In this document: piece by piece, positions 5,850 to 27,172 of the stretch
How the letters are laid out: every line of letters starts with the position of its first letter
Position numbering within the stretch: position 1 is the first letter of the stretch
From: a virus
Strand: one strand, 5' to 3'
IMG/VR virus record: IMGVR_UViG_3300034066_002182
Span: 1-32,653 of that record
DNA length: 32,653 nt
Program-made: the position numbers and the translations under genes
Notes under the pieces: generated by a model
The model's input: the letters and a program-made list of their open reading frames with translations, nothing else
What the model was told of the DNA's origin: nothing
Database searches by the model: none

Positions 5850-5854
5850 TTGAT

Positions 5855-5882
5855 AAAAGAGGGTTATTAACCCTCTTTTTTT
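5855..5882 (+). terminator. Rho-independent terminator
   Basis: AGAGGGTT (5858-5865) pairs with AACCCTCT (5869-5876) across ATT; an A run upstream and a T7 tract (5876-5882) complete a classic intrinsic terminator. It closes the 2103-5849 operon, immediately before a late-promoter-like box. Confidence 0.9.
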
Positions 5883-5884
5883 GT

Positions 5885-5892
5885 AATAAATA
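5885..5892 (+). promoter_or_regulatory. Late promoter-like box (AATAAATA)
   Basis: AATAAATA fits the NATAAATA late-promoter pattern of T4-like cyanophages (T4: TATAAATA). It follows the terminator by two bases and precedes the gp25-gp6 operon. A start near 5898 would put a small hairpin (AAGGG 5899-5903, CCCTT 5912-5916) at the transcript's 5' end. Confidence 0.65.
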
Positions 5893-5953
5893 CTAGAGAA
5901 GGGATAGCAACCCCTTTAAAAGTTCTGTTAGACCCATTTTTTGGAGAAAACAG

Positions 5954-8697: not shown

Positions 8698-11600
8698 ACA
8701 CCTTAAAAGAGAAAATTACAACTACATCTGCGTTAATTGAAAATCAATTACCATCTTTTGTAGCAGATAACAATCCTAAATTTATTTCTTTTTTAAATTC
8801 ATATTATGAATCTCAGGAGACAAAATATAATTCATTAGATTTAGTCAAAAATTTTATTGAATATTATAATATTGGAAGTTATACTTCTAATAGTTTAATT
8901 CAATCTACTAAATTGTCTCAGCAATTATTAAGTTCTCAGACAACTATAACTGTAGACAGTACTTTAGGATTCCCAGAACAAAATGGGTATCTGATGATCG
9001 AGGGAGAAATTATATTTTATAAGTCTAAAACTAAAACTCAATTTAAAGATTGTGTTAGAGGCACTGGAGCTTTTATTCTAGAAAAAATTCCGTCCAATCA
9101 AATTATATACAAAAATGGCACTTCAAGTGCAAATCATGCAAGTGAATCTGTAGTAACTAATGTAGCCTATTACTTTGTAGAAGAATTTTTAAGAAGAATA
9201 AAGACTGAGATTTCTCCTGTCCTTCCACAAAAATTATCTAAAAATTTAAACTTAATTACATTTTTAAAAAATATTAAATCCTTTTATAGTACAAAAGGAA
9301 CTCAATTTTCCCATAAAATTCTTTTCAGAATTTTATTTAATGATAAACTTGTAAAATTAAGACTAGTTAATAGTGGCACTGGTGCAAAAATTAATATTTT
9401 AAATTATACTGGCAAAATTGATGAAGGTGGATATGAAGTTAAAGAATCTGGATCTGGGTATTATCTTGAATATGATGGAACTGGAAATTTAATAGGCCAA
9501 CCAATTATAGAAATTTTGGGTTCTGGAACTGGATCTCCAAAAAATAATTTGATTCCAAACTCAGCTTCAATGAAAGTCACTGGCATGACTTTAGGTGGAG
9601 GAATTGCACAAAATGGCATAGAAGTTACAAATGAAGGAACTGGGTACGTTGGACCTATTACTGCCAGAATTCGTGATAGAAATTTTGATAATGATCAAGA
9701 AATTGAATGTGTGGATATAAATGGTAATGTTGTATCAACTGCTAAAGTTTATAGTTGGGATTCATCATCGAGAGAATTGACACTGTATGATGTAGAGGGA
9801 TTTTTCTACTCTGGATATAGAATCATCGGTAAGGGAGGTGAAAATCCAAGATCAAAAATTTCTTTGGCATATCCAAAAACTTTACTTAATAAAGAAGGAA
9901 ATCCTTCAATAGAAATTATTTCTAAAGATCCAGAAGTAGAACTTCCTAGAAATTATACTATACAATCTTCTGGTGCAAAATTTTATAAAAGAACTACAAT
10001 AAGATGTGAATTAATTTCTGGAGATGCAATTGCTGTAGAAAGTGCTTCTCTTATCCAATTGACTCAAAAGTCAGATAAAACTTATAATATTAAAGGAACT
10101 TCCATCGAAGTTTCTAGTATTAATAATGTGGGTGGAAATTTTTATGAATTTGAAGTAGATGATAGTTTACAATATAAAAAATTATTTTTACCAGCATCTA
10201 CAAAAATAACTTCATCTGTTACTATACCAAGTGTTGGAACTGGAGTTAATTTAAATGTTTTAAAAACAACTAATTTTCCTGAGAAAAATGGAAGATTACA
10301 TATAAATGGAAAACTAGTAGAATATACTTCAAAAACACCTACTAGGTTTAATGGGTGTAAAGTTATTAACAATTCTGCATTTTCAGTATCTTCTTTAGAT
10401 AATTGCTACCTACAAGGAAGAAGATGCACTCCAAATCATATATCATATTTTTTAACTGGATATATTAATGGCGCTGTTGATAATCCACTTATTTTTAGAT
10501 TAGTATCTCTTCCATCTGAACCAATAATAGAAAATCCTGGATGTTTGTATTTTTCAAAAATTCACGAATTTGAAAATCAAACTATTTCAACTAAAATTAA
10601 ATCTAAATCTTATCAATTTGGAAGTATAGATTCTGTTATTATTGAAAATGCAGGATCTAATTATAAAATATTTGATAATGTTTTAATTGATGAAAATTCA
10701 TCAATTGGATCTGGATTTTATGCATATGTATCGGAAATTTCTGGAAAACCTGTAGAATCATATGATTTTACACGATTAAATTCTATTGATTATATTACAA
10801 TAACAACATCAAGTAACCACAATTTACAGACTGAAGATGTTGTGTATTTTAATCAATCTATCGGGAAACAGAAAATATTCTCAGTTCTTTCCAATACAAA
10901 ATTTTTAATTCCAAAACCATCTTCATTAACTGACACTAATCTTCTTATATCATATACAACCAATTCAAAAACTTCTTCTGGATCAATTGTAAAAATATCA
11001 ATTTCAAATAAAGGAAATAATTATAATAAACTTCCTTTGGTTCTTGGAATAAAATCTGATACTGGTATTGGAGCTATTATTCAGTTAAATTCATCTACAA
11101 TAGGAAGAATATCTGATTTAGAGTATGCTTCTGTTTCAGGAGAGCTTATTGGCGATAAAATTACAAAATATCCAATTAAATTTGGGTCAACTGCAAAAAT
11201 AATTAATAATTTTCAATTATCTAAAATAAATATTATTTCTGCCGGTGATAATTATAGATCTTCGGATAAAATATCTATAAACGGCACGGTAAACGAATCT
11301 ATTTACAAATTTAAAATTTCAACCTCAGCTTCTGTTTTATCCTCCATTGAAGTAATACGAGGTGGAAATAATCTGAGTGCATTTCCGCAAGTTCAAATTA
11401 TAAGTGATACTGGATCTGGTGCATCTTTACAATCAGAAATTTCAAGAAAACATTTATATGAAAATGATATTTTATATTTAAATTCTTTAACTTCTCCTAC
11501 TGGAGTTTGTAAGGTAATTTATTTCGATACTACTTCATCAACTCTTGAATTTGAAGTTGTTTCTGGTACGACCTCAAATAATGATATAGTATATCTTTCT

Positions 11601-14600
11601 GATGGATCTATATATGGAAATATCATTTCAATATCAACTGCATCTGCATATGCAACTCCTTTTTCATATGTAAAATATCCTCACAAATTTTTAGATAATT
11701 ATGGATTTTTAAATGATTCTACACAAAAAATCCATGATAGTGTTTATTATCAAGATTGGTCATATCTATTAAATTCAAGTAGAAATATTTTTGAGTGGAA
11801 AAACGAAGTACTTCAAAATACTCATCCATCAGGATTTAAGGTATACGGAAAAAATACAATTGAAAAAATTAATTCAATATATCAACAAGATGATATTGTT
11901 AAAGGTTCTCTAATATTAAAGTCATCTTTTAATAACTTAGCAGAATTAAATTTAAGACTATCAAATTGCAAAACTCAAAAACTTTATCTTGGTAATACAA
12001 GTTCATTTAATGTATCTGATTATGTTTATAGTCCAATTTCAAAAGCTAAAGGAATAGTAAAGGAAGTTAATGACAATTTTATTGAAGTTTATCTTTATAA
12101 TACAAGAAGAAAATTTGATGATTTAATTTTTGATGTAAATACTAGTTTTTATGAATTAACAATTAATGAATTAAATGTTTCTGAAAATTTTCCTATTGAT
12201 AATTCTAATGTATATGTAATTGCAAATAATTCTTATGAACTTTTACCAAACACATATAATATAGTATCAAATGGAATTATAATTTATAATACATATAATT
12301 TTGAGGATTTTGATTCGTTAAAAGTATATCAAACTGGAACTGAATTTGATGAAACCATTTATTTCATTGATGGCGAATATGTATATGAAGTAGATGAAAA
12401 ATTTATTTTTGAAAATATTGATGACACATCAAAATTATTATATTTTTATGATGGAATAATGCAACAACCTTATAGGAGTTATATTTATTCTAATGATACT
12501 TTTATTACAAATTTTAATATAGATACTTCAAAACAATCTATTACTAGTAAACTTACAACTGACTATGAAAATTTAAATTACTTAATTCAAGATTCTCAGT
12601 TAAAATTAATTAAAAATTTCCAAAATTTTTCTCCAATTAGTAAAGAAAATTTAATAATTTCAATTGATGGTGTAATACAATCACCAAATTCATTTACTTT
12701 AAATGGAAATGTGGTTCAATTATCGGAATCTGTGACATTTGAGGATAATGTATTTGTACTGTACCACGAAAAGTTCAAATCATTAACATTTACTGGATCT
12801 GGAACAACTTATACTTTAAATTATACACCATCATCCGCATGTAGATTATTAATTTTTGCTAATGGTGTATACCAGACTCACTTGGTTACAGATTATTCAG
12901 TGTCTGGAAATGTTCTTACATTAAGTGAATCTGTATCACCAGCTAATATTCTTGGTTGGTATATAGATGAATCTGTAATTTGTTCTTTGTTAAATATACA
13001 AAATATCAATCAATTTAAAATTTTAAATTCATCAACTTGCTCTGGAAAATTATTTACTACTTATATTGAAACCCGTGTAAATGCTTCTCCAAATTCATAT
13101 TATGAATTTACAAAAAATTTAATGGATGGTACTGTTTACTCAGATACTTCCACAAATACTTTGTATGGCTACAACACTAGATTTAAATATTCAACTCCAG
13201 AATATTCTACTAGTTATGTAGAAGTTCTAAATCCTATAACATTCAATGGAAGTGCTAAGACATTTTCATTAACGTATATAAATGGAATTTCATATACTCC
13301 AGTCAATGGAGAATCAAATTTAATGGTTTACATTGATAACACTGTATTGGACTACGATAAGTATAGTATTTCTGGTTCATCTATAACTTTTGTAGATACT
13401 TATAATTCTTCGAATAACTGCACAATTATAGATTTTGCAAGTAAATATCGTTCTAACAATATTACTTCAAAAGGATCTAATCTCGATAGATTGAATGTTG
13501 TTCAAAATGGAACTAAAAAAATATTTAATTTATCTGATAGAGGAGTTCCCCAATATGTCAGGAATGTGGAAGATTTATTTGTAATTAAAAATGGAACTTT
13601 ACAAATTCCAAATAGTACAACTCAATCCATATCCAATAATAAAGTAACATTACAGACTGCACCAGTTAGTACTGATGCATTAAATATTTTATATTTTAAT
13701 AGGCAATTACTTCCAAGTAAAACTAAAAATCTTATACTCGATGGTATAGTTTGTTTTGATGGAATAAGAACATCATATCCATTGAGTATAGATGGAATCT
13801 ATCAATATCCGGTTTCAATATATCATTTATTTGTGATTAGACATGGTGTACATCAACAACCATTAATTGATTATACAATTTCTACGACTGCAACTGGATC
13901 GTTTATAAACTTTAGTGTCGCTCCAGAGAATGGCGAAAATATAATTGTATATTATTCGTACAATGGATTGAATCAGAATTTTATTTTTGACACATTTAAA
14001 TTTTTCAATGGCATTCAAAATACATTTTCTTTAACTGCAAATTATATTAGTGCTGACGTATTAAGTTCATCTCACATTCAAGTTTATAAAAATCAGGAAT
14101 ATCAGTATCCACAAAATGATTATACTATATCTGGAGGAACTGGGTACAAGTATATTCAGTTTTCTACTCCACCAACAACATCGGACAATTTTCATATTGT
14201 AAATTTTACAACTGATGATTTAGTTGATGTGACTTCTAGATTTTCACAACAATCTACTACATCATTATTATACACTCCCGCAACTCCATCAATTGATACT
14301 AATGTATTTTTAATTTATATTAATGGAATTTTGCAAGTTAAAGATTCATGGAGTTTTAACACAACCACACAAATATTATCTTTGACTCAATTTGTAAGTT
14401 TGTCGCTAGATGATGTTAGGATACTTGCTTTTAAAACTGCAAGAAGAAAATTTGATACTATCAATACAGTAAATGGAACTAATACATATACTTTAACTGT
14501 TAATAGCAATAACATTACAACAAATTTACCCACAAAAAATTCAGATTTAATTGTAATTGTCAATGGAATTGTTCAAAATCCATCAACTGCATTTAGTGTA

Positions 14601-16973
14601 TCTGGAAATTCTCTTACTTTAAATGGACCTGTAAATTCTGGATCGACAGTTAATGTTTATCAGGTAGGCATGTCTTCCAGTGATACTCAAATTATAGATT
14701 ATTTGAATGATAATTTTTCAAAATCTACATATAAGTTACAACAAAATTATAAAAGTTTTAACCCACCATCAACTTCTGATATTTTTATTCTTAGGCATGG
14801 AGTTGCACAAAATCCTGGAGAAGATTTTGTAGTTGGAAATGGATATATTACTTTTACTACAAATATAACTGATTTAAATGAACTTGTTATCATGTATAGA
14901 CATGCTTCAAGTGAATTGACAGTTCAAAATACATCTAATAATATTATTACATTATCTTCTTCTGTAGCATCAAATGAATATAAAAATATAGTCGTTTATT
15001 TAAATGGAGTTCCGCAATTCAATGAATATAATTTTACAATGTCTAATAATACTATAATTTTAGATTCAATACCTTCAGAAATAAGTTCTTTATATGTAAT
15101 TAAATATTCAAATATTACCTTTTATGATCCACTAGATGATTGTCCAGATGGAGAAAGAACTAAATTTAGAACTTTATTGAATTTGCAAAATTTAGTATCC
15201 TCAGATATTATTTCAAATGCAGATATTATAATTTCAAAGAATGGAATTATTTTATATCCTGGAGTAGAATATACTCTAACTGCAGGTAGAGGAATGGTGC
15301 AGTTTTCATCACCATTAAATTATGGAGATCAAGTATTCATGATTAGAATGTATGGAAATCAAGTTATTAATTTAACTTCTGTTTCTGGTTCGTCTACTGT
15401 ATTTGATTTAAGTTCTTCTATTCCATCTTCAGATCAAGAAGATTTGGTTATTTTTTCAAATAATCTTTGGAGATTTAGTGAGCTGGGGCAATTTACATAT
15501 AATTCTACTTCAAGAATTACACTTTCTTCAGCAAAGACTTCTCAATATGCATTCGGAATTAAATTCTTCGGACTTGTTAAATTGTTAGATCAAATTCATA
15601 CTCCATACAATGGTTCTAATAATAAATTTAACCTATTCTTAAATGAAGAAAATTTTATGCCTACTGGAACAATTGAAAATACTGCCACTCCTTCAGAAAC
15701 TAGTATTTTAGTTGTAAAGAATGGTAAAGTATTAGATCCTGGAGTAGATTATACTTTACAGGGAGATATTAAATCTCAAATTCAATTTGCAAGTGCTCCA
15801 ATTTCCACAGATGTCATCTCTGTTAAGTCTGTAGGATCATTCTTGAAGTTAAAATCAATTACTTCTGGATTTGGAGGGAAAGTTTACGATTTGAAAAAAC
15901 AGGATAATTCTGTATATTATCCAAATGCACTTATATCTCGTCCAAGAGAATATGAAAATCAAATTTTAGTTATAAAAGATGGAAATATTCAAAGTCCTTT
16001 ACAAGATTACTATATTGACAATGATAAATTAATCTTTATGAATAATGTAACTGCATCTAAATTGGTCATTTTAGATTTCATGGGAACTATTGATGATGTT
16101 AAAGTAGATCAATATCAGAATCAAGTAGAAGTTGGAGAAATTATTTTCATAAATGGTGAATCATCTGGAAGAGAAGTTACAGAAATTATATCTCCTACTA
16201 TACTTAAAACAGAGTCGATTCAAGGACCATTCCCTTCAGGATTCACTGCAACTTCTACTGTTTCAAATGGAAAACTATCTTCCATCACAATTACAAATGG
16301 AGGAACTGGATATGGATTCCCAGTAATCTTGAGAACCAAAGGAGTTGGAACAAGTGCTAAAGCAACTGCAAATGTAGATAAAAATTTGGGAAATAAAGTA
16401 ACTCCACCAATTTCCATAGAATATCCTGGATATAATTTATATCAACCTCAACAAATAGTTGCAACGTCATATGCATATTATTACAAAAAAACTCCATTAA
16501 ATACTTCATCTATTAAAATTGCAACTAGATTAACTTCAAATATAAATTCTACTGCAGAAATAATTCCAATTGCAAACTCATCAAGATTTGATCAATCTGA
16601 TATTATAATTACAATTAATTCTTCTAGTGGATCTGGAGCTACTTTTAGACCATTTGTGAGCAACGGAAGAATTAGAAAAATTGAAGTTATTAATCAAGGA
16701 ATTGGATATGATGATAGAGATGTAACTCTAACCGTATCTGGTGGAGGTGGAAGTGGATGCGTATTAAGTCCAGTATTAGACTCCATGGGCAGATTAACTT
16801 CCATCACGGTTAGAAATGGAGGCGAGGGATATGATACATTTAAAATTATGATTTATAATGAAATTATAGAATATACAAATATCGTTTCAAATCAACTTAT
16901 TGGTTGTACTAGAGGATCTTTTGCAATTTCTCACACAGCAAACACTCTAGTTTATTATGACAAATTTATATAA
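8694..16973 (+). CDS. 7: Giant baseplate wedge protein gp7 (2759 aa)
   Basis: gp7 is the wedge protein that links inner and outer baseplate. T4 gp7 has 1032 aa. Similarity is to its C-terminal half: FIEYYNIG near the start, SFYSTKGTQFSHKILFRILFND at about 194-215 (T4 has FYSTKG...FLFKVLYN), and a conserved block around HPSGFKVYGK near residue 1044. From about 1247 to 2460 follow some 15 repeats of roughly 80 residues with the pattern L-hydrophobic-V-x-NGV-x-Q-x-P...DY...SG, ending in a strand. The last 250 residues carry NGG.GY modules and an EIIEYT...GCTRG motif. I chose ATG 8694, overlapping the gp6 stop, over the upstream in-frame TTG 8688. The repeat block probably extends the baseplate rim or helps adsorption; that is inference. 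Confidence 0.85.
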   Translation: MNTLKEKITTTSALIENQLPSFVADNNPKFISFLNSYYESQETKYNSLDLVKNFIEYYNIGSYTSNSLIQSTKLSQQLLSSQTTITVDSTLGFPEQNGYLMIEGEIIFYKSKTKTQFKDCVRGTGAFILEKIPSNQIIYKNGTSSANHASESVVTNVAYYFVEEFLRRIKTEISPVLPQKLSKNLNLITFLKNIKSFYSTKGTQFSHKILFRILFNDKLVKLRLVNSGTGAKINILNYTGKIDEGGYEVKESGSGYYLEYDGTGNLIGQPIIEILGSGTGSPKNNLIPNSASMKVTGMTLGGGIAQNGIEVTNEGTGYVGPITARIRDRNFDNDQEIECVDINGNVVSTAKVYSWDSSSRELTLYDVEGFFYSGYRIIGKGGENPRSKISLAYPKTLLNKEGNPSIEIISKDPEVELPRNYTIQSSGAKFYKRTTIRCELISGDAIAVESASLIQLTQKSDKTYNIKGTSIEVSSINNVGGNFYEFEVDDSLQYKKLFLPASTKITSSVTIPSVGTGVNLNVLKTTNFPEKNGRLHINGKLVEYTSKTPTRFNGCKVINNSAFSVSSLDNCYLQGRRCTPNHISYFLTGYINGAVDNPLIFRLVSLPSEPIIENPGCLYFSKIHEFENQTISTKIKSKSYQFGSIDSVIIENAGSNYKIFDNVLIDENSSIGSGFYAYVSEISGKPVESYDFTRLNSIDYITITTSSNHNLQTEDVVYFNQSIGKQKIFSVLSNTKFLIPKPSSLTDTNLLISYTTNSKTSSGSIVKISISNKGNNYNKLPLVLGIKSDTGIGAIIQLNSSTIGRISDLEYASVSGELIGDKITKYPIKFGSTAKIINNFQLSKINIISAGDNYRSSDKISINGTVNESIYKFKISTSASVLSSIEVIRGGNNLSAFPQVQIISDTGSGASLQSEISRKHLYENDILYLNSLTSPTGVCKVIYFDTTSSTLEFEVVSGTTSNNDIVYLSDGSIYGNIISISTASAYATPFSYVKYPHKFLDNYGFLNDSTQKIHDSVYYQDWSYLLNSSRNIFEWKNEVLQNTHPSGFKVYGKNTIEKINSIYQQDDIVKGSLILKSSFNNLAELNLRLSNCKTQKLYLGNTSSFNVSDYVYSPISKAKGIVKEVNDNFIEVYLYNTRRKFDDLIFDVNTSFYELTINELNVSENFPIDNSNVYVIANNSYELLPNTYNIVSNGIIIYNTYNFEDFDSLKVYQTGTEFDETIYFIDGEYVYEVDEKFIFENIDDTSKLLYFYDGIMQQPYRSYIYSNDTFITNFNIDTSKQSITSKLTTDYENLNYLIQDSQLKLIKNFQNFSPISKENLIISIDGVIQSPNSFTLNGNVVQLSESVTFEDNVFVLYHEKFKSLTFTGSGTTYTLNYTPSSACRLLIFANGVYQTHLVTDYSVSGNVLTLSESVSPANILGWYIDESVICSLLNIQNINQFKILNSSTCSGKLFTTYIETRVNASPNSYYEFTKNLMDGTVYSDTSTNTLYGYNTRFKYSTPEYSTSYVEVLNPITFNGSAKTFSLTYINGISYTPVNGESNLMVYIDNTVLDYDKYSISGSSITFVDTYNSSNNCTIIDFASKYRSNNITSKGSNLDRLNVVQNGTKKIFNLSDRGVPQYVRNVEDLFVIKNGTLQIPNSTTQSISNNKVTLQTAPVSTDALNILYFNRQLLPSKTKNLILDGIVCFDGIRTSYPLSIDGIYQYPVSIYHLFVIRHGVHQQPLIDYTISTTATGSFINFSVAPENGENIIVYYSYNGLNQNFIFDTFKFFNGIQNTFSLTANYISADVLSSSHIQVYKNQEYQYPQNDYTISGGTGYKYIQFSTPPTTSDNFHIVNFTTDDLVDVTSRFSQQSTTSLLYTPATPSIDTNVFLIYINGILQVKDSWSFNTTTQILSLTQFVSLSLDDVRILAFKTARRKFDTINTVNGTNTYTLTVNSNNITTNLPTKNSDLIVIVNGIVQNPSTAFSVSGNSLTLNGPVNSGSTVNVYQVGMSSSDTQIIDYLNDNFSKSTYKLQQNYKSFNPPSTSDIFILRHGVAQNPGEDFVVGNGYITFTTNITDLNELVIMYRHASSELTVQNTSNNIITLSSSVASNEYKNIVVYLNGVPQFNEYNFTMSNNTIILDSIPSEISSLYVIKYSNITFYDPLDDCPDGERTKFRTLLNLQNLVSSDIISNADIIISKNGIILYPGVEYTLTAGRGMVQFSSPLNYGDQVFMIRMYGNQVINLTSVSGSSTVFDLSSSIPSSDQEDLVIFSNNLWRFSELGQFTYNSTSRITLSSAKTSQYAFGIKFFGLVKLLDQIHTPYNGSNNKFNLFLNEENFMPTGTIENTATPSETSILVVKNGKVLDPGVDYTLQGDIKSQIQFASAPISTDVISVKSVGSFLKLKSITSGFGGKVYDLKKQDNSVYYPNALISRPREYENQILVIKDGNIQSPLQDYYIDNDKLIFMNNVTASKLVILDFMGTIDDVKVDQYQNQVEVGEIIFINGESSGREVTEIISPTILKTESIQGPFPSGFTATSTVSNGKLSSITITNGGTGYGFPVILRTKGVGTSAKATANVDKNLGNKVTPPISIEYPGYNLYQPQQIVATSYAYYYKKTPLNTSSIKIATRLTSNINSTAEIIPIANSSRFDQSDIIITINSSSGSGATFRPFVSNGRIRKIEVINQGIGYDDRDVTLTVSGGGGSGCVLSPVLDSMGRLTSITVRNGGEGYDTFKIMIYNEIIEYTNIVSNQLIGCTRGSFAISHTANTLVYYDKFI
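12434..16080 (+). repeat. About 15 divergent NG-x-x-Q-x-P repeats in gp7
   Basis: Units such as LIISIDGVIQSPNSF, LFVIRHGVHQQPLIDY, LIVIVNGIVQNPSTAF, IFILRHGVAQNPGEDF, ILVVKNGKVLDPGVDY and ILVIKDGNIQSPLQDY recur about every 70-90 residues. DNA identity is low, so the units are old, not a recent expansion. They fit a beta-strand repeat seen in large phage fibre and baseplate proteins. Confidence 0.75.
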
Positions 16974-17014: not shown

Positions 17015-18685
17015 ATGCCTTCATTAGTAACAGATAATTTTAGGATGTTTGCGGCTCAACAATTTGTAGAGTCTTTAGAAGAACCTTATACAAATACTGC
17101 AACTCCCCCAACTCAAACTTCAGATACGGATGCACAATCGCAGGCGTATAGAAGTAAAATTTACTTGTTTATTGGAAGATCTCAAAACTGGAATGATACC
17201 TCAACAATAAATGCAGTAATTGAGAAATATAAAGGATTTACTAATATTTCTGATTTAAATCCACCATCTCCAGTAGATTCAATAGATGAATTGAGTGAAA
17301 TTTATGATGATATGATTGCATTAAAGAGAGTTAATAGATCAGACGTATGTGAAGTAGTACGAAAAAGAGTATGGCAAAAAGATATTGTTTATGATATGTA
17401 TAAAGATGATTATGGAACTTTAAAAACTGATGGTAACATAAAATTATCATCAAATGGACAGTCTAAATTATATAATTGTAATTTTTATGTGATGAATAGT
17501 CAGTTTCAGGTTTTTAAATGTATCTATAATAATCAAACCGTCGCAAATCCTTCAGGAACTCCTTCTACTGTAGAACCAACTGGAACTAGTACTTCTATAA
17601 TTACTCTTAGTGATCAATATAAATGGAAGTATATGTATACAATTACAATTCCAGACTATATCAAATTTGTTTCCACTGATTTTATGCCTGTTAGAATTGA
17701 TTCTACTGTGCAAACAGCTGCCGTAAATGGGGCAATTCATCAAGTTATAATTGAATCTGCAGGCTCTGGATTTGTTACTGCAGAGAATGGAACTTATTTT
17801 GTTCCTGTCAGAGGAGACAATACTAATAACTGTATTGTACAAATTACCATATCATCTCAATCTCTCACTAGTGCAACTATAGCCACTAATAATGGCACTC
17901 TACTTACTGGATCTAATTACTCTTATGGATACTTAGATTATTCTAGATGTTATAAACAGCTTGCAAAAGCATTGAATGAATCTACAGCAGTTTCTTCAGA
18001 TTATGAGAATTTTGTTACAAAAAATATGAAAATAACACCTATAATTTCTCCTCCTGGAGGACATGGTTCAAATGCACTCTATGAACTTGGTGCATATAGA
18101 ATTATGATTAACAAGAGTCTAGATTTTCTAGACGGTGAAGGAGATATTCCAGTTGACATGCAATTCCGTAGATTTGGATTAATTGAAGATCCTCAGAGAA
18201 ATGGAACTAGTGAAGATTATGTAATTAATACTGCTACTGCGTGTAGAGCAATTAAATTTTCTACATTAACATTTAATGGCAACTTTAATATTGGAGAGAT
18301 AATTAGACAACCATCCACTGGAGCAACTGGAAGAGTTATTCATTGGGATTCTATCAATAAAGTTTTAAGATATTATCAAAATGAATATATTAATGGTACA
18401 CAAACTGCAGAATTACAATATAAATATATTCCATTTTCGGGAACTTCTGCAATTAATGGATCTCCAACTACTGAAGGAGGAAGTGGAATAACGGGAGCAA
18501 TTCCAGATACATCATTTAGCAATAATCAAACAATCCCAGAAACTAGTGGAATTGTATTTGCAAATGGATATTCTGTTTCGGAAGTTAAAAAATTTAGTGG
18601 TAAAATTTTATATGTGGAAAACAGAAAACCAGTAGTAAGATCAAATGATCAAATTGAAGATGTAAAATTAGTTATAGAATTCTAA
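17015..18685 (+). CDS. 8: Baseplate wedge subunit gp8
   Basis: A 556-residue gp8 (T4 gp8 is 334 aa and sits as a dimer in each wedge, bound to gp7 and gp10). The N-terminus has KIYLFIGRSQNWND (about 48-61), matching FITFGRSEPW in T4 gp8, and the block MIALKRV...VVRKRVWQKDIVYDMY (about 108-135). DQYKWKYMYTITIPD (about 199-213) corresponds to the T4 region GYVWEYLFEIPPD. The C-terminus SGKILYVENRKPVVRSNDQIEDV matches T4 SGEMIYMENRPP...DQTEEI. The extra length comes partly from beta-modules, including STGATGRVIHWDSINK (about 433-448), which recurs in gp14. The SD AAGGA supports the start. Confidence 0.9.
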   Translation: MPSLVTDNFRMFAAQQFVESLEEPYTNTATPPTQTSDTDAQSQAYRSKIYLFIGRSQNWNDTSTINAVIEKYKGFTNISDLNPPSPVDSIDELSEIYDDMIALKRVNRSDVCEVVRKRVWQKDIVYDMYKDDYGTLKTDGNIKLSSNGQSKLYNCNFYVMNSQFQVFKCIYNNQTVANPSGTPSTVEPTGTSTSIITLSDQYKWKYMYTITIPDYIKFVSTDFMPVRIDSTVQTAAVNGAIHQVIIESAGSGFVTAENGTYFVPVRGDNTNNCIVQITISSQSLTSATIATNNGTLLTGSNYSYGYLDYSRCYKQLAKALNESTAVSSDYENFVTKNMKITPIISPPGGHGSNALYELGAYRIMINKSLDFLDGEGDIPVDMQFRRFGLIEDPQRNGTSEDYVINTATACRAIKFSTLTFNGNFNIGEIIRQPSTGATGRVIHWDSINKVLRYYQNEYINGTQTAELQYKYIPFSGTSAINGSPTTEGGSGITGAIPDTSFSNNQTIPETSGIVFANGYSVSEVKKFSGKILYVENRKPVVRSNDQIEDVKLVIEF

Positions 18686-18726: not shown

Positions 18727-21700
18727 ATGCAAAAAACAAATCTTAATTTGCAACCATATTTCGACGATTATAATAGGTCTAAAAATTATTATAAAGTTCT
18801 TTTTAAACCTAGTTTTCCTATACAAGCTAGAGAACTAACTACCTTACAATCTATTTTACAAAATCAAATTGAAAGATTTGGTCAACACTTGTTTAAAGAT
18901 GGATCAGTAGTTATTCCTGGCCAAGTAGGATATGATCTGCAATATAATGCAGTTTTGATTCAACCAACTATTAATAGCATTAATTTTGAAACTACTTTCA
19001 GAACTAAATTAACTGGAAAGATTTTAACTGGTAGTTCTTCTGGTGTAAAAGCCAGGGTAGTGAATAGTATTAGTGCAGAGACTTCTGAAAAACAATTTGC
19101 TACTTTATACGTAAAATATACTTCTTCTGGAAATGTAGAGAATGGAGTTCAATTAACAAAATTTAAAAACAATGAGATATTGGTAGATGATAGTGGAAAT
19201 CAAGTAGCATTAACATCTACCCAGAATGCATCTGCATTCAAAGGAAGTGCGGCGTATATAACCTCTGGTGTATTCTTTATTCGTGGATTTTTTGTTGATG
19301 TTCCAGAACAAAGTATTATATTAGATCAATATACAGGATTTTCTTCATATAAAATTGGCCTAGAAATTATTGAAACTATTGTATCTGCAAGTGAAGATTC
19401 TTCTTTATATGATAATGCCGTAGGATCTTCAAATTTCTCTGCTCCTGGAGCAGATAGATTAAAAATAGATGCTGTATTGTCGAAAAAAGATGTAGATATT
19501 TCTGCATCCGACTCTTTCATAGAATTAATAAGACTAAAAGATGGTGAGTTAATTAAAATAGTAGATAATACAGTATATAATGAACTGGAGAAAAATTTAG
19601 CTAGAAGAACATTTGATGAATCTGGAAATTATACTGTATCTGATTATAATGTATCTTTAAAAGAAACTTATAATGATGGAGAAAATGATGGAGTATATCT
19701 ACTAAATGATTATCTAGTAGATGGGACTAAAATATTAAACAGAACTCCTACAGAATCTGATGGCAAATCTATTGATGCAAGAAATTATTACACGTTAGAA
19801 CTATCTAAGATCAAAGCTTACGTAAAAGGGTTTGAAATTAATAATGCCGGAAAATCTTATACAACTGTAGAAAAGCCTAGAAATTCTTTAACTGTAAATA
19901 ATAGAGGTATAATTTCTTCTTTTGGTAATTATGTAGAAGTGAATCAAACTTCTATTATTGGAAAAGTTAATCCTGGTGAAGTAATAACTTTAAAAAATAC
20001 CAACAACTCTATCGAAACTACTGTAGGAAAGGCAAGAGTATTATCTCTCCAAGGACAAGGAAAATTATTCTTATCTGATATAACTTTATATTCATCTATT
20101 AAAACTTCAGAATCCAATCCGAGTCTATTTTCAGGTGATTTTATATTTTTAAGTAATGGATCAACTGCGGTTATTGAATCTATCACCACAAATACAATTA
20201 TATTAAGTCAAATTAATGGAACAATAGTTCCAGGAATAAGTTTTACCAATAGTAGAAATTCAATTACATATAATATTGACACTTGCACAAATTATAAATT
20301 TGAAGATGTTCTATCAGTATCATCTTCTGGTTTTAGTGCAGATTTAAAATTGGATGAAGTTACACTCACAGGAACTTCATTCAGTGTAAGAAATAATAAT
20401 CCCACAAGTACAATAACTCATACTTATGATGATTCCAATAATGCCACTATTAGTTTAGTAGGAACAAATGGAATTCAAGTACAGGCTCAATCAACCACAA
20501 GTGTTGATGGTGTTGGAACTGTAACTGGAAATGCTAGAAATGTATATCAAGTTTCTTCTGGAACTGGAAATGCTACTTTTACCGTCACAAAAAATACCAA
20601 TGCAACTTATACGGTAGCAATTTTAAATCCTGGATCTAATTATACTAATGGACAAACTTTAACTATTTCAGGAACTTCTTTAGGTGGTACATCTGCTAAC
20701 AACATTACTTTATCCTCAATCACTATAAATCCAATTACTGGAGTAGGTACTGTAAACGGATCAGCAAAAAATACATACTCTTCAATTGCTGGAACTGGAG
20801 GAGGAGCTACAACAAACGCAACATTTAATGTTACCAAAAATTCAAACGGAACTTATTCAATTGCAATTGCAAATGGTGGTGCTGGATATACTGCCAATGC
20901 AACAAATATTATAATTACTATTCCAGGAACTTCTTTAGGTGGAGATTCTTCTAATAATGTAACTTTAACAAATGCTGCTGCGAATGCGAGTGGAGTTTTA
21001 ACAGGTTTTGGTACTGTAAGTGGTAACGCAAAAGTTTCCTATACTGGAGTTACACATAGTTCATCTTCTAGTAATGGTTCGGGAGCAACCTTTGATGTTA
21101 CTGTAAATGGATCTTCATATGTTGTCAATAACGTATCAAAAGGATCTGGATATGTTTCTGGAAGTACTTTAACTATTCCAGGAACTTCTTTAGGTGGAGA
21201 TTCTTCTAACAATCTAACTTTAACAGGAATTACAGTAGTTGATGGTTCAATTGCGTCAGTAGGAACTGTTACGGGATCTGCAAAAATAGCTTATAATGGA
21301 ATCACTAGTTCTACTGGAACTGCTACATTTAATGTTGCAATTAATAATGGAAATTATACCGTTTCATTGGCAACTGGTGGTACTGGATATACAAATAATC
21401 AGTCAATTACTATTCCAGGAACTAGTTTAGGAGGACTTTCTCCAGATAATGATGTATCTTTCCCTGTAACTAGTACTGGAAAGAATTATTTAATTACATT
21501 TTTAGACAATACTACAGTATCTTCAAATGCATCCAATATTACTCCTGCAGTTGTTGGAAATAGAACAGCAGGGGGAGTTGCTAGAACTATAGTAGTAGAT
21601 ACAATAACAAGATTATCTGACAAGAGTGTTAAGGTATCGTTTAAAATAGTAAATCCAGGACAATCAGATAATAATTTAAATACTTTTGTCCGTGATTTTA

Positions 21701-24700
21701 CTATTACCAGATCTGCTGGAAATTCTATAACTTTAACAGGAAGTTCTACACAATTTGCATCAGAACTTAAGCCTCAAATGAAGTTATTAATAGGAGGTTC
21801 TACTGTTTCGGTACTTGAAATCATTTCAGAAACTCTCAGAATTTCTGGAACTATTGCAGAAGGAACTTATTATGGAATTAAAAAATTAACACCAAAAATT
21901 AAATCACTTGGACCAAATTTTTATACAAAAATTTTAAGCACTCCTGTAAAATCTGCATCCGATTTATCATATTTTAAATCAATTACAGAAACTAAATTAA
22001 TAGATTCTGGATTCACAACAATTTCCACAACTTCAAATTATACAATTTCTCCAAATGATATCACAGTAACTAATAATTCGGGATCTGTTCTTTTCACCAC
22101 TTCTGATGTAACTGGGTATAGTGTAAAACTTAATTTAAGTGCTGGATTAAATGGCACCAATGTTAATGTTACTTATAAAGTAAGAATAAATGATCCTTCA
22201 ATAAAAACAAAAGTTTCAGAGACTTTTAAAGTATTAAAGGTAAATAAACAAAAAGATAGTACTAATATTGTATACGGAACTAGAATATCTGATAAAGAAA
22301 TTTCATTAAAATTCCCAGACGTATATAAAATACATACAATTAGAGAAATTGTAAACACAGGCGATTCTGATGATTCATTATTTGATAAAGTTGTAGTAAA
22401 TGATGTATCTGGTATTTCAAAAGGAAATATAATATACAAGGATAGTATAAAAGCAAAAGTTATACACATTCAAGGTACTACATTATATCTGATATACATT
22501 TCACCTGAAAAATTCCAGCCAGGTAGCAATTTATCCATTTCTATTAATGTAATTTCCAAAACTTTTGTATCTGGAAAATATATAACTTCAGCAACTAGTG
22601 GAAGATATAAAGATATCACTAAAGATTTTAGTTTAGTAAAAAATGATGGTCCAGAATTTTATAATATTTCAAAGTTAGTACGATATGATGCTGCAGCAGT
22701 TCCACAAAATAATTTCTTAGTCGTATTTGATTATTTTTCACACGACAATTTATCAAATGATTTGTATACAACAAATTCATATGATTTTGGCGAGATTGAA
22801 TATTCAGAAATTCCTTCATGTTACGATGGAACACCTTATACTGATATAATTGATTTTAGATATTATGCATCACCATCACCTATTACAGGAACTTCTGGAA
22901 CTATAGCATCTCCATATGTAGAAACTACATCTGCATTTAATTTATATCCACCAGCTATTACATCTAGAAGCATCTCTTCATTTATCTTCCCAGGAGATAT
23001 TGTCACTGTTGATTATGATTATTATATGGGAAGAATTGACAAAGTATTCCTGGATGAAAATGGAAATCTCACAGTGGCAAAAGGATCACAATCATTAACT
23101 CCCCAGCCACCAGAAGATATTTTAGGTGCATTGCATTTAGCAACATTAAATATTCCACCTTACATGAAGGATGTAAACGATGTTGCGGTAACTTTTGTCG
23201 ATTCAAAACGTTATACAATGAAGGATATTGGATCTATTGATAAAAGACTTAAAGCAGTAGAAGAACTAACGTCTTTAAGTTTACTAGAAATAGATACAAA
23301 TAATCTTAATATCACCGATGCAGATGGAAATAATAGATTTAAAACAGGGTTTGTAGCCGATAATTTTAAGACTACTCAGTTAGCAGACTTAAATAACGTT
23401 AATTACACTGCATCTATTGATACTGAAAATGCATTACTCAGACCGTATCCATACATTACAAGTACTTCATTAACATACAATAGTTCTTCAAGTTCCAAGA
23501 TAACTGGATCTATAGTAACTATTCCATACACTGAAGTCTCTTATGTGGTACAAAATTTTGCAAGTAGAGTAGAAAATTTACAACCATTTGAAGTTATTCA
23601 ATGGGATGGAGATTTGACATTAAATCCAGATAGAGATGTTTGGTTTGATACTGTAAGAACTACAACTAATACCAACCGAATAGATTTAAGTCAACCAGTT
23701 AGATTTTTATTTGATAGAAGTGGAGCTTCTGGAGACCAATGGAATGCATGGCGAAATGTCGGATCTCAGAGAGTTGGTGGAGGAACTAATGTTTTCCAAG
23801 AAAGAACTGGAGTAAATAATTCATTCTCCACTTTAACTCAAGATATTCAAGTAGGGGATACTATAAATTCCGTTGCACCTTCAACCTTCATGAGGTCAAT
23901 AATTGTAGATTTAACTTGCCTCAAACTAAAACCAAATACATTATTCCACTTCTTTGTTGATGATGTTCTTAATAATTTAATTGTTTATCCTAAACATTTT
24001 ACAAATATGACCCGACCACCTACTGGTGCTGGCACATTTGTTGTAGGAGAAACAGTTGATTTTTTCTATAATCCACCTGCAGGAATGGTAATGGCAATGG
24101 TGATGCCTACAAATCCTATAATTGCTACTGTCGCTTCTTCTTCTGTGGGCACATACAATGCAAACTCCACATATTTAAGTATTACCAATATTAGATCTCA
24201 AGATGGAACTAATGTTAATGCAAATAGTTTTGGGGATAGATTTACTATTGTTGGGAGATCATCTGGTGCTAGAGCAAGTGTAGACTTTAGTTCATCTTCA
24301 AATACACCTAGATTAAGGTCAGATAATGGTGGATCACTTCAAGGATTTATACTAATTCCGAGATCAACTTATCCAACAGGAACTTCTACTTTTAAATTGT
24401 GTGATCAAGTTAGTGGCACAACAGTATATGGAATTTCGGATTCAAATGCAGAAGCTTCATACAATTCCGAAGGAACTGTAGTCAATGTAACTAGTAACGT
24501 ACTGTCATTAACTACTCCTCAAATTGTCAGCACTCCTATTAGAGGAAGGCAAACGGTATTTGTTCCAGATCCACCACCACCACCACCACCAGCCCCAGCA
24601 GGCCCAGACCCTATTGCACAATCATTCTTTGTTCAAAATTTAGATGGTGGAGTGTTTGTAACTTCTATTGATTTATATTTTCAATCAAAAGATGATACTA

Positions 24701-26409
24701 TTCCAGTATCAGTAGATTTAAGGACAATGGAAAATGGGACTCCAACTCAAACCATACTTCCAGACAGTGTTACTGTTGTTCAGTCTAGTGATGTAAAAGT
24801 TTCAAATAATGCTCTCCTTCCAACAAGATTTACTTTTAAGTCACCGATATACTTAGCTCAGAATACTGAATATGCATTTGTTGTAAGAAGTGCTTCAAAA
24901 CAATATAAAATATGGATATCTAGATTGGGAGATCAAGAGATTAATAGTAGATCTGTAATTGATAAGCAACCATATTCTGGATCATTGTACAAATCTCAAA
25001 ATATGTCTGTATGGACGCCTGATCAATTTGAAGATCTTAAGTTTGTTTTAAATAGAGCAAAATTTGTCACAAATGCAACTTATACTTGCAAATTATCTAA
25101 TTTGCCAGTTCCTTCTGTAAGTTTACCACCAAATCCATTTAAATTTACTACATCTTCTGGATTAATTGAAGTATATCACCCAAATCATGGAATGAACAGT
25201 AAGCAAAATTATGTTAAAATTAGTGGAGTAATTTCACAATCTACATCAACTACGTTAAATACTAACATATCATCGACAACACAAGTTGGGAATATAACTA
25301 TAGGAAATGCCGCAGATACTTCTTGGAGTACTATAAATGGTGCTGTAGTATCTGCAAGTAATCCAGGATATATTTTAGTGAGAAATGAAATTATTAAATA
25401 TACTTCAATTTCTGGAACTACATCTGGAACTACATTAGGTATTCCATCTGATGGAAGAGGGCAATTTGGAACAATTGCATCTACCTATTCTATAGGAGAT
25501 TCAGTTTCTTGCTATTCTTTAAATGGAATTCCATTATCTGAAATTAATAAAGTTCACAAAATAACTGAAGTTATTGATTTAGATAGATATAAAATTACTG
25601 TGTCAGCTAATGCATCATCTTCTTTAGTTGGAGGAGGGTCTGATGGAGTTGCATCCAGAAATATTGCATATGAAGAAATATTCCCAAATATTGCTCTTGC
25701 AAATATTCCATCAACAAATGTAAGCCTAACATTTGATAGTGTATCTGGAAATTCTGTCAATATTCCAGAATCATCTTTCAATCTAGTTTTAAATCAACCT
25801 ATTCAAAATAAACAATATTTAAAATTAAATTCACCTAAAATAATAACATCTCCAGTAAATTCAGATGAATACTTTGATAGTTTAACATATTCATCATTAA
25901 CATTTAATGTGAATATGTCTACAGAAAAGGATAATCTAAGTCCATTTATTCAAGTAAATGGTTCTTCAGCAGTGACGATTTCAAATAGAATTTTAAAGAA
26001 AGTTTCTAATAATGTATTGGATATTTCTCAAGAACTTACGCCTTCTTCTGGAATCTATTCTTCTTACATAACTAAAAAAATTACCCTTCAAAATACATCA
26101 ACATCTATAAAAGTTCTACTGGACGCTATTAGATATAGAGGATATGCAGGAGAGTACTCTGATATTAAAGTATTTGCTAAAATGTATCCAGATGGAAATC
26201 TAGGATCTTTTGATAACATGAACTATGTTGAAATACCTGCAGTATCATATCCAACTTCTTCTACTTCAAATGAATATAAGTCATTTGATTTTGAACTGAA
26301 AAATCTTCCAGAATTTAAGGAATTTAGTATAAAAATTTGTATGATTAGCAATGATCAAACTAATATTCCAATAATACGAAACTTTAGATCTATTGCATTG
26401 GCGGTATAA
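18727..26409 (+). CDS. Giant DUF4815-type baseplate/fibre protein (2560 aa)
   Basis: The N-terminus (LQPYFDDYNRSKNYYKVLFK followed by ARELTTLQSILQNQIERFG) matches the DUF4815 family of large virion proteins in T4-like cyanophages, often labelled gp9 or gp10 by position. Residues about 595-915 hold four tandem 79-85-residue repeats ending in IPGTSLGG. About 920-997 is a segment shared with the 1093-aa protein at 2103. After about 1640 come Trp-containing regions (VWFDTVRTTTNTN, FDRSGASGDQWNAW), then a proline linker (PDPPPPPPPAPAGPDP, about 1950-1965) and a C-terminal beta-rich half with QSFFVQNLDGGVFVTSIDLYF. GAAGG (18711-18715) is a usable SD. It probably forms the outer baseplate with fibre-attachment or host-contact roles. 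Confidence 0.8.
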   Translation: MQKTNLNLQPYFDDYNRSKNYYKVLFKPSFPIQARELTTLQSILQNQIERFGQHLFKDGSVVIPGQVGYDLQYNAVLIQPTINSINFETTFRTKLTGKILTGSSSGVKARVVNSISAETSEKQFATLYVKYTSSGNVENGVQLTKFKNNEILVDDSGNQVALTSTQNASAFKGSAAYITSGVFFIRGFFVDVPEQSIILDQYTGFSSYKIGLEIIETIVSASEDSSLYDNAVGSSNFSAPGADRLKIDAVLSKKDVDISASDSFIELIRLKDGELIKIVDNTVYNELEKNLARRTFDESGNYTVSDYNVSLKETYNDGENDGVYLLNDYLVDGTKILNRTPTESDGKSIDARNYYTLELSKIKAYVKGFEINNAGKSYTTVEKPRNSLTVNNRGIISSFGNYVEVNQTSIIGKVNPGEVITLKNTNNSIETTVGKARVLSLQGQGKLFLSDITLYSSIKTSESNPSLFSGDFIFLSNGSTAVIESITTNTIILSQINGTIVPGISFTNSRNSITYNIDTCTNYKFEDVLSVSSSGFSADLKLDEVTLTGTSFSVRNNNPTSTITHTYDDSNNATISLVGTNGIQVQAQSTTSVDGVGTVTGNARNVYQVSSGTGNATFTVTKNTNATYTVAILNPGSNYTNGQTLTISGTSLGGTSANNITLSSITINPITGVGTVNGSAKNTYSSIAGTGGGATTNATFNVTKNSNGTYSIAIANGGAGYTANATNIIITIPGTSLGGDSSNNVTLTNAAANASGVLTGFGTVSGNAKVSYTGVTHSSSSSNGSGATFDVTVNGSSYVVNNVSKGSGYVSGSTLTIPGTSLGGDSSNNLTLTGITVVDGSIASVGTVTGSAKIAYNGITSSTGTATFNVAINNGNYTVSLATGGTGYTNNQSITIPGTSLGGLSPDNDVSFPVTSTGKNYLITFLDNTTVSSNASNITPAVVGNRTAGGVARTIVVDTITRLSDKSVKVSFKIVNPGQSDNNLNTFVRDFTITRSAGNSITLTGSSTQFASELKPQMKLLIGGSTVSVLEIISETLRISGTIAEGTYYGIKKLTPKIKSLGPNFYTKILSTPVKSASDLSYFKSITETKLIDSGFTTISTTSNYTISPNDITVTNNSGSVLFTTSDVTGYSVKLNLSAGLNGTNVNVTYKVRINDPSIKTKVSETFKVLKVNKQKDSTNIVYGTRISDKEISLKFPDVYKIHTIREIVNTGDSDDSLFDKVVVNDVSGISKGNIIYKDSIKAKVIHIQGTTLYLIYISPEKFQPGSNLSISINVISKTFVSGKYITSATSGRYKDITKDFSLVKNDGPEFYNISKLVRYDAAAVPQNNFLVVFDYFSHDNLSNDLYTTNSYDFGEIEYSEIPSCYDGTPYTDIIDFRYYASPSPITGTSGTIASPYVETTSAFNLYPPAITSRSISSFIFPGDIVTVDYDYYMGRIDKVFLDENGNLTVAKGSQSLTPQPPEDILGALHLATLNIPPYMKDVNDVAVTFVDSKRYTMKDIGSIDKRLKAVEELTSLSLLEIDTNNLNITDADGNNRFKTGFVADNFKTTQLADLNNVNYTASIDTENALLRPYPYITSTSLTYNSSSSSKITGSIVTIPYTEVSYVVQNFASRVENLQPFEVIQWDGDLTLNPDRDVWFDTVRTTTNTNRIDLSQPVRFLFDRSGASGDQWNAWRNVGSQRVGGGTNVFQERTGVNNSFSTLTQDIQVGDTINSVAPSTFMRSIIVDLTCLKLKPNTLFHFFVDDVLNNLIVYPKHFTNMTRPPTGAGTFVVGETVDFFYNPPAGMVMAMVMPTNPIIATVASSSVGTYNANSTYLSITNIRSQDGTNVNANSFGDRFTIVGRSSGARASVDFSSSSNTPRLRSDNGGSLQGFILIPRSTYPTGTSTFKLCDQVSGTTVYGISDSNAEASYNSEGTVVNVTSNVLSLTTPQIVSTPIRGRQTVFVPDPPPPPPPAPAGPDPIAQSFFVQNLDGGVFVTSIDLYFQSKDDTIPVSVDLRTMENGTPTQTILPDSVTVVQSSDVKVSNNALLPTRFTFKSPIYLAQNTEYAFVVRSASKQYKIWISRLGDQEINSRSVIDKQPYSGSLYKSQNMSVWTPDQFEDLKFVLNRAKFVTNATYTCKLSNLPVPSVSLPPNPFKFTTSSGLIEVYHPNHGMNSKQNYVKISGVISQSTSTTLNTNISSTTQVGNITIGNAADTSWSTINGAVVSASNPGYILVRNEIIKYTSISGTTSGTTLGIPSDGRGQFGTIASTYSIGDSVSCYSLNGIPLSEINKVHKITEVIDLDRYKITVSANASSSLVGGGSDGVASRNIAYEEIFPNIALANIPSTNVSLTFDSVSGNSVNIPESSFNLVLNQPIQNKQYLKLNSPKIITSPVNSDEYFDSLTYSSLTFNVNMSTEKDNLSPFIQVNGSSAVTISNRILKKVSNNVLDISQELTPSSGIYSSYITKKITLQNTSTSIKVLLDAIRYRGYAGEYSDIKVFAKMYPDGNLGSFDNMNYVEIPAVSYPTSSTSNEYKSFDFELKNLPEFKEFSIKICMISNDQTNIPIIRNFRSIALAV
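20510..21460 (+). repeat. Four tandem 255/237-bp coding repeats in the DUF4815 protein
   Basis: The anchor motif GTSLGG is encoded at 20668, 20923, 21178 and 21415, a period of 255, 255 and 237 bp. Copies 2 and 3 are nearly identical at DNA level around the anchor (from CCAGGAACTTC onward for over 40 bp), pointing to recent duplication. Each unit also has a GTV.G.A. strand and a G.GY turn. Confidence 0.85.
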
Positions 26410-26411
26410 TT

Positions 26412-26645
26412 ATGGATAAAATGTATGTTGATGGGCACCCAAATCTTTATAGAGATTTAAAAAGCGGTGCCATAATAAATGAAAGTGATACAAATTATAA
26501 ACTATACATGGAACAGTATCAATCAAGACAACTTAAATCTAGACGAATTGATACCATTGAAAATGATCTAAATAGTCTTAAATCTGAGATTAGTGAGATT
26601 AAATCTTTGCTTTTGAAATTAAATGAACGATCTTCCATTAACTAA
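26412..26645 (+). CDS. Small coiled-coil protein, 77 aa
   Basis: The first 30 residues (MYVDGHPNLYRDLKSGAIIN) look like a short folded head that I recall as common in T4-like cyanophage genomes; the rest, about 45-72 (IDTIENDLNSLKSEISEIKSLLLKL), is a clear coiled coil with hydrophobics at heptad positions. It starts two bases after the stop of the DUF4815 gene and its end overlaps the NblA-like ORF by 23 bases in another frame. The location suggests a minor virion or assembly protein, perhaps a partner of the DUF4815 protein. No function is known to me. Confidence 0.8.
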   Translation: MDKMYVDGHPNLYRDLKSGAIINESDTNYKLYMEQYQSRQLKSRRIDTIENDLNSLKSEISEIKSLLLKLNERSSIN

Positions 26646-26781
26646 ACAATTTACTCTTCAAAAAATTTATAACGATATAGATTCTTTAAACGAAGAGGAT
26701 GCTAAAAAAATTGCAAAAGAATTTGCAAAATTATACCATATACAACAACATGTCGTGATGAATTTATTAATTAGAAAGTAA
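26623..26781 (+). CDS. NblA-like small protein (possible phycobilisome degradation adaptor)
   Basis: A 52-residue frame from ATG 26623 to TAA 26779-26781, overlapping the end of the coiled-coil gene. The product fits the NblA pattern: a short N-terminal L.L..QF.L motif (DLPLTKQFTLQKI), a first helix, a turn with ...LNEEDAKKIAKEF where NblA has M-S-R-E-Q-A, and a second helix ending in NLLIRK where NblA has LLKHQW. By eye it aligns without gaps over about 50 residues to what I remember of cyanobacterial NblA. NblA is an adaptor that brings phycobilisomes to Clp protease; some cyanophages carry it. The Leu and basic residue near the C-terminus are where NblA contacts phycobiliproteins. The usual C-terminal Trp is missing. 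It could instead be an unrelated small helical protein. Confidence 0.5.
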   Translation: MNDLPLTKQFTLQKIYNDIDSLNEEDAKKIAKEFAKLYHIQQHVVMNLLIRK

Positions 26782-26786
26782 ATTAC

Positions 26787-26823
26787 TAAAAGGTCTCCTT
26801 ATAAATACTAAGGAGACCTTTTT
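26787..26823 (+). terminator. Terminator with a late-promoter box in its loop
   Basis: AAAGGTCTCCTT (26789-26800) pairs with AAGGAGACCTTT (26810-26821) across a 9-nt loop, followed by more T. The stem-loop border reads TATAAATA at 26800-26807. It closes the DUF4815/NblA-like operon. Confidence 0.85.
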
Positions 26824-26832
26824 ATATAAATA
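26800..26832 (+). promoter_or_regulatory. Two perfect TATAAATA late-promoter boxes
   Basis: TATAAATA occurs at 26800-26807 (in the terminator loop) and again at 26825-26832, 25 bp apart. The first would give a start near 26813 and a 27-nt leader; the second would start near 26838, only two bases before the ATG at 26840. Both match the T4 late consensus exactly. Confidence 0.6.
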
Positions 26833-26839
26833 TTTTTAA

Positions 26840-27172
26840 ATGGCAGCTGTAAAAAATTTATACGTTGACCAAGGTACTGACTTTAGTGTTCAACTAACAA
26901 TTTACGATGATAATAATTCCCCTTGGAATTTAACTGGATACACTGGTCAAGCTAAAATAAGAAAATCTTATTATAGTTCAACTTCTGTAAATTTTGCTCT
27001 ATCTTTTCATGCTGTCAGAACTACTGGAGTGATTACTCTTGAATTGAATTCTTCACAAACATCTTTATTAGAACAAGGAAGATATTTATATGATGTAGTT
27101 ATTACCAATCCATCCAATAAAAAAACTAGAGTGATAGAAGGTATTGTTACTATCAATCCAGGGGTAACATGA
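26840..27172 (+). CDS. Small beta-rich virion protein, 110 aa
   Basis: A 110-residue protein predicted to be all-beta. It starts with AVKNLYVDQGTDFSVQLTIYDD, continues with NLTGYTGQAKIRKSY, and ends with GRYLYDVVITNPSNKKTRVIEGIVTINPGV. This resembles the Ig-like N-terminal domains of phage fibre and baseplate-upper proteins (BppU-type), in which a strand with Y-D-V precedes the E-G-x-V-x-I-x-P-G-V end. The resemblance is by eye. It is the first gene after the two late-promoter boxes and overlaps the next gene by ATGA (27169-27172). No SD lies near the ATG. Likely a structural protein attached to fibres. Confidence 0.7.
   Translation: MAAVKNLYVDQGTDFSVQLTIYDDNNSPWNLTGYTGQAKIRKSYYSSTSVNFALSFHAVRTTGVITLELNSSQTSLLEQGRYLYDVVITNPSNKKTRVIEGIVTINPGVT

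Follow-up and report, generated by a model that had tools for sequence, protein, structure and literature searches.

Phage-borne NblA is established for Ma-LMM01, MaMV-DC and PaV-LD (PMC9602691, PMC4103541), and expression of phage NblAs in cyanobacteria led to phycobilisome loss (PMC9602691). Nadel et al. 2019 predicted an NblA in S-TIM5, and ORF237 of S-SCSM1, which has seven cyanomyovirus homologues, was assigned as NblA by HHpred (PMC9602691). Viral NblA is reported to lower light capture and photosynthesis of infected oceanic cyanobacteria, by an estimated figure of up to 5% globally (Nadel et al. 2025, as cited in PMC12892361). The present study concerns a stretch of 32,653 nucleotides of viral DNA (IMG/VR record IMGVR_UViG_3300034066_002182), hereafter the window, in which an earlier note had pointed to a small NblA-like open reading frame (ORF). 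Its premise that phages carry NblA holds, whereas the novelty of the find is smaller than it implied, since phage NblA and the T4-like family have already been reported (PMC9602691). With a probability of roughly 0.7, we consider that this ORF encodes a distant NblA-type adaptor for Clp proteolysis of a T4-like cyanophage, which strips phycobilisomes, probably late. The ORF and its surroundings are as follows.

18727..26409, + strand: 2560-aa structural protein, placed where marine relatives have the VrlC-like T4-GC 400 gene
26412..26645, + strand: coiled-coil virion protein, 77 aa (T4-GC 112 / phrog_473, E 6.7e-25)
26623..26781, + strand: NblA-like ORF, 52 aa, ATG start, TAA stop; phrog_27081 member (E 1.8e-8)
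26788..26822, + strand: hairpin with a 14-bp stem, a 7-nt loop and a T-rich end (-19.1 kcal/mol, z -5.2)
26800..26807, + strand: TATAAATA, presumed late promoter box of the T4 type, lying in the hairpin loop and at its edge
26840..27172, + strand: L-shaped tail fibre assembly-like protein (LtfC-like; phrog_1084 E 1.8e-30, phrog_3304 E 2.7e-29, PF23926 E 1.3e-5)

The ORF proved to be as earlier described, that is, a plus-strand frame of 52 codons from ATG to TAA. Its product is MNDLPLTKQFTLQKIYNDIDSLNEEDAKKIAKEFAKLYHIQQHVVMNLLIRK, and its start shares 23 nt with the 3' end of the coiled-coil ORF at 26412-26645, the overlap that had been claimed. No open frame was found on the opposite strand of the ORF, and tRNA and Rfam searches of the window gave no matches. 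The ORF is a genuine gene, kept by purifying selection. When IMG/VR was scanned with its protein, 21 loci were found, in all of which the ORF is open; one (L005) has the window sequence over 8.9 kb, and the other 20 are 56-92% identical. Outside the overlap, the summed pairwise differences between homologues at codon positions 1, 2 and 3 were 261, 162 and 948, and the median pairwise dN/dS was 0.05. The conservation in related phages for which the earlier note had asked is thus evident among the 20 close viral relatives, and a wider profile scan found at least 257 relatives on viral contigs.

The surroundings are the structural cluster of a T4-like cyanophage. The protein encoded at 18727..26409 heads the cluster that the NblA-like ORF ends, and the gene at 26840..27172 forms the downstream border of the slot; further downstream, PHROGs for a head-tail adaptor, head closure, a tail sheath stabilizer and the terminase small subunit follow. 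The ORF was therefore correctly placed among late structural genes, with the phrog_473 virion protein upstream and the L-shaped tail fibre assembly protein downstream. It matches the phrog_27081 / T4-GC 1205 family and occupies the usual slot of that family: S-SM2 (homologue labelled T4-GC 1205), Bellamy (homologue gp115), SynMITS9220M01 and S-SRM01 have the same gene order, with the homologue after the T4-GC 112 gene. No clear Shine-Dalgarno sequence was seen before 26623, and the coiled-coil gene and the ORF are probably translationally coupled.

In the window, the region directly 3' of the ORF (26788-26832) contains the hairpin and the TATAAATA box; the corresponding region of L006-L026 was compared with it. 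None of 200 shuffles was as stable as the hairpin, which is present in many, not all, relatives and is probably the end of the transcript carrying the ORF. The box, which we take to be a late promoter from general knowledge of T4-like phages, was found in all close relatives inspected, even in those without the hairpin, and it likely drives the downstream tail-fibre assembly gene; the word by itself is not enriched in the window. Together, hairpin and box make the ORF look like the last gene of a late unit, with the gene after it having a late promoter of its own. This layout supports, rather than demonstrates, late expression of the ORF, and its position makes expression timed with virion production plausible. 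A terminator hairpin followed by AATAAATA also occurs at 5850-5900 of the window.

Several other features of the window were observed. Positions 1-1250 have a G+C content of approximately 62%, against 31-36% elsewhere, and the small ORFs there are unrelated. Since a second contig (L274), which extends upstream at 43-55% G+C, has 100% identity to positions 1-2825, the G+C-rich start did not arise by accidental end-joining in a single assembly. The ORF at 6556-8697 (713 aa), just 3' of a short ORF at 6136-6552, has a low-complexity Gly/Asp/Pro/Thr tail, GGGDGGGDGGGDG. A single ORF of 2761 aa at 8688-16973, listed with a TTG start, is very long for its position; it is flanked by the 713-aa ORF and by a 556-aa ORF (17015-18685).

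The direct resemblance to NblA is low-scoring and extends over nearly the whole protein. In the proposed profile search, PF04485 was the sole Pfam family that matched the ORF, even at E<=10, but with 13.9 bits (E 0.075) the match does not reach the curated gathering cut-off of 25 bits, and for this reason we call the ORF NblA-like and claim no strict membership in PF04485. The ungapped alignment that the earlier note had made by eye was recovered by the profile, in which ORF residues 4-49 correspond to positions 2-47 of 50. With a canonical NblA profile made here from 29 non-redundant cyanobacterial NblAs, the ORF came out on top of all 383 six-frame ORFs in the window (E 0.003; runner-up 0.15), and none of 5000 composition shuffles scored as high; the resemblance is thus beyond chance. 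Against this profile, scores of 10-17 bits were obtained for relatives in the window branch and of approximately 0-4 bits for marine members, the syntenic ones among them being at about 0 bits. In a 172-kb relative (G004, which holds L015), PF04485 matches nothing in the record but the homologue of the ORF, and the best viral relative (L024, in record G005) reaches 18.5 bits (E 3.3e-4). A search of the whole record of the window with PF04485 listed no match, in contrast to the direct scan of the protein, probably owing to a search filter. Other searches were negative: an NCBIfam scan of the ORF gave no match, tblastn with canonical NblA sequences found no phages, and both phmmer of the ORF and hmmsearch of the family profile against PDB sequences gave weak unrelated matches, with 1OJH at E 0.092 in the latter. 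In an hhalign comparison of the whole mixed phage family with canonical NblA, the E value of 0.27 was not significant, and scores as high were reached by 25 of 200 profiles with shuffled columns, which is evidence against a close relationship between the two.

By the ungapped alignment, the ORF is approximately 17% identical to Anabaena NblA over 46 residues (counted by eye). At the C terminus, L48-L49 lie at the NblA motif positions. Leu51 and Lys53 of Anabaena NblA reportedly serve phycobiliprotein binding (work attributed to Bienert, 2006); the equivalent of Leu51 is kept in the ORF as L48, and that of Lys53 is I50, followed by R51-K52. The invariant residues of the phage family itself (K8, K32, L37, Y38, Q41 and Q42) are outside the NblA signature, and the conserved KLYxxQQ segment is peculiar to it; the target of the phage family could therefore differ. 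The N-terminal motif L-x-L-x-x-Q-F, to which ClpC binding has been assigned (PMC4103541), is kept as L4, L6, Q9 and F10, and E10-Q11 of NblA is replaced with T-K.

AlphaFold2 with the viral alignment predicted helices at residues 6-20 and 24-49 with a turn between them (pLDDT 87), and the same method placed the helices of an Anabaena-type NblA (the sequence of 1OJH) at 9-22 and 27-55; once the offset of 3 residues in the ungapped alignment is applied, both models have the same helix starts. The structure prediction suggested in the earlier note thus yields, for the monomer, a helix-loop-helix in the range of about 50-65 residues with boundaries like those of Anabaena NblA. Foldseek of the model against PDB and BFVD gave no matches; this null result is uninformative, since the control model of Anabaena NblA equally missed 1OJH and every other NblA entry.

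A firmer link was obtained through host genes. In 145 cyanobacterial genomes, a profile of viral sequences only (A4) matched 23 host ORFs at E<=3.3e-4. When PF04485 was then run over the genomes holding them, 14 of the 23 were also PF04485 matches at identical coordinates (E 6.6e-5 to 0.013), and one host ORF (G094:C5:3112093) exceeded the Pfam cut-off with 26.3 bits. The proteins of these bridge genes, typified by MSDLPIEKQFTHMMFCQQIQNIDLDAAKQLLTELHMLYLGQQAVMVKIAKQEFLGG (PF04485 E ~1e-4), match no other family at a comparable score, and they have LP-[IL]-x-K-Q-F (LP-x-x-KQF) and LY-x-x-QQ in common with the phage protein. Conversely, a bridge protein searched into 50,697 phage records (2.3 Gb) matched only members of the phage family of the ORF. 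In a tree of 70 sequences, based on 59 columns and unreliable in its finer branching, all canonical NblAs lie on one side of a long branch (2.45), and host bridge and phage sequences are intermixed on the other. Most genomes with bridge genes have no strong canonical NblA; inspection by eye saw no phycobilisome operon in the host neighbourhoods and no phage context in the 3-kb loci. The ORF thus appears homologous to NblA via intermediate sequences, and the divergent host family is a possible source of the phage gene. That the ORF is NblA-like, as the earlier note had interpreted it, is the best-supported reading; it is supported by the profile links via host genes, the predicted fold and the ungapped alignment, and this support is transitive and does not come from a significant direct match. 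The divergent host NblA-like family was observed at L241-L250 and L254-L270, mostly below the Pfam cut-off. The rest of the 23 host matches are mostly in the small genomes G061, G138 and G145, with up to five copies each, and the short related proteins of these genomes have no PF04485 match.

The relatives of the ORF are cyanophages, since the 172-kb relative carries psbA and another relative has two psbA/psbD-type genes; all 25 isolate records with the NblA-like gene are Synechococcus phages. The window branch is probably of a freshwater type, because S-SRM01 and DSL-LC03 are lake or reservoir phages. The expectation that such a gene would be hidden or called hypothetical was borne out: PHROG 27081, which all 15 members of one alignment (A1) match, is listed with 'unknown function', and most homologues are labelled 'hypothetical protein'. 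The S-SCSM1 homologue was deposited as 'phycobilisome degradation protein' and that of S-SCSM2R, between both terminase genes, as 'NblA'. The deposited annotation of Sf-CH5 skips an ORF of the family (L240:3001-3156), which lies in a gap; the same holds for the corresponding place in Sf-CH8. The evidence supports calling PHROG 27081 / T4-GC 1205 NblA-like.

One alternative is that the ORF encodes a small virion or tail-assembly accessory, in which an inherited NblA-like hairpin has taken on the role of structural or chaperone partner to its neighbours (the VrlC-like protein, the coiled-coil protein and the L-shaped tail fibre assembly protein). The stability of the slot would suit it, as the T4-GC 112 coiled-coil gene is directly upstream in 86 of 93 family loci and both neighbours are kept in 66 of the 93, the rest being mostly contig-end cuts or downstream-only differences, and so would invariant residues that differ from those of NblA; this deep conservation makes a structural role possible. 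However, homologues are far from structural genes in S-TIM5 (amid hli, petE, talC and tRNA genes), in S-SCSM1 (adjoining helicase and oxygenase genes) and in S-SKS1, DSL-LC03 and Sf-CH5 (amid small hypothetical genes). Furthermore, occupancy of the late slot is optional: against 441 phage records with the coiled-coil gene, approximately 25 have the NblA-like gene, and Syn19, S-RIM8 and S-TIM4 have the former and lack the latter there. From these scattered positions and the optional slot, a cargo gene fits better than a structural one, and the profile links lead to NblA and host genes; we regard a structural accessory as unlikely.

The protein could also be an NblA-descended Clp adaptor or decoy for other cargo, such as a host regulator or a defence protein, or could block host NblA by forming heterodimers. 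The loss of the lysine at NblA position 53 and the family's own conserved KLYxxQQ are in line with this, and the occurrence of the host bridge family in genomes without a strong canonical NblA makes a separate role possible. However, there is no positive evidence for another target, and the freshwater-type branch retains both L-x-L-x-x-Q-F and the C-terminal L-L, so that we judge this explanation to be quite improbable. Chance resemblance of a generic helical hairpin unrelated to NblA might be suspected from the single-sequence E value of 0.075 and the non-significant comparison of whole-family profiles. It is hardly credible in view of the agreement of two independent profiles on the same host ORFs in 145 genomes, the full-length ungapped alignment, the matching helix boundaries and the failure of all 5000 shuffles to score as high.

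If the ORF is indeed an NblA-type adaptor, the 52-aa helix-loop-helix protein would dimerise like NblA, its N-terminal L-x-L-x-x-Q-F region would contact the host ClpC chaperone and its C-terminal L-L end would contact phycobiliprotein rods. Phycobilisomes would then be dismantled and degraded during infection, presumably with bleaching; amino acids would be set free, and less light would be captured. Since the gene closes a late unit of virion genes, the action might begin in the late phase, when capsid and tail proteins need most amino acids. More tentatively, and with the odds against it, the NblA-derived adaptor may be a standing member of the late virion block that performs antenna proteolysis, or Clp delivery of other substrates, together with particle assembly; it would then be a distinct late viral NblA, derived from the divergent host NblA-like family and not from canonical nblA. 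The phrog_27081 branch (at least 257 loci on viral contigs) is widespread, mostly unannotated and missed by the usual profile cut-offs, and in most T4-like carriers the gene is in late transcription units. Thus, if the ORF works as proposed, current estimates of the cyanophages that dismantle antennae would be too low, and the timing of antenna loss would differ among phage groups.

Compared with canonical NblA (PF04485; PDB 1OJH, 2Q8V, 2QDO and 3CS5), the ORF is alike in size, predicted helix-loop-helix fold, L-x-L-x-x-Q-F and L-L motifs and ungapped register; it differs in its score below the Pfam cut-off, its identity of about 17%, T-K in place of E10-Q11 and I in place of K53, and the long branch of 2.45 parts canonical NblA from its group. 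The host NblA-like genes (for example L245, L246, L248 and L250; G094:C5:3112093) score 28-30 bits with the phage profile and 12-19 bits with the NblA profile and, unlike the phage ORF, are cyanobacterial chromosomal genes. With S-SCSM1 ORF237 and the S-TIM5 gene, the window ORF shares the phage family, as its match to phrog_27081 (E 1.8e-8) indicates; its syntenic counterpart in Bellamy, gp115, shows 52% identity with S-SCSM1 ORF237 (E 2e-11). In contrast to the S-SCSM1 family members, the window branch is shorter, with 52 aa and without the MDPxxIEL N-terminal extension, and its gene lies in the late structural cluster, whereas that of S-SCSM1 is beside helicase and oxygenases. From the scores against canonical NblA (10-17 bits, versus approximately 0-4 for marine members), the window gene represents an unannotated freshwater-type branch that is closer to canonical NblA than the marine ones. 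The NblAs of the freshwater bloom phages Ma-LMM01, MaMV-DC and PaV-LD are likewise phage-borne, and their phycobilisome degradation was demonstrated or inferred (PMC9602691, PMC4103541). The early-expressed nblA of Ma-LMM01, which overlaps nrdA, retains every conserved cyanobacterial residue (PMC4103541), whereas the window gene is diverged and lies at the end of late virion genes. To these known systems, the present analysis adds a conserved slot in the late virion cluster, mostly left unannotated in the records, as well as a host family of divergent NblA-like proteins that joins the phage proteins and canonical NblA.
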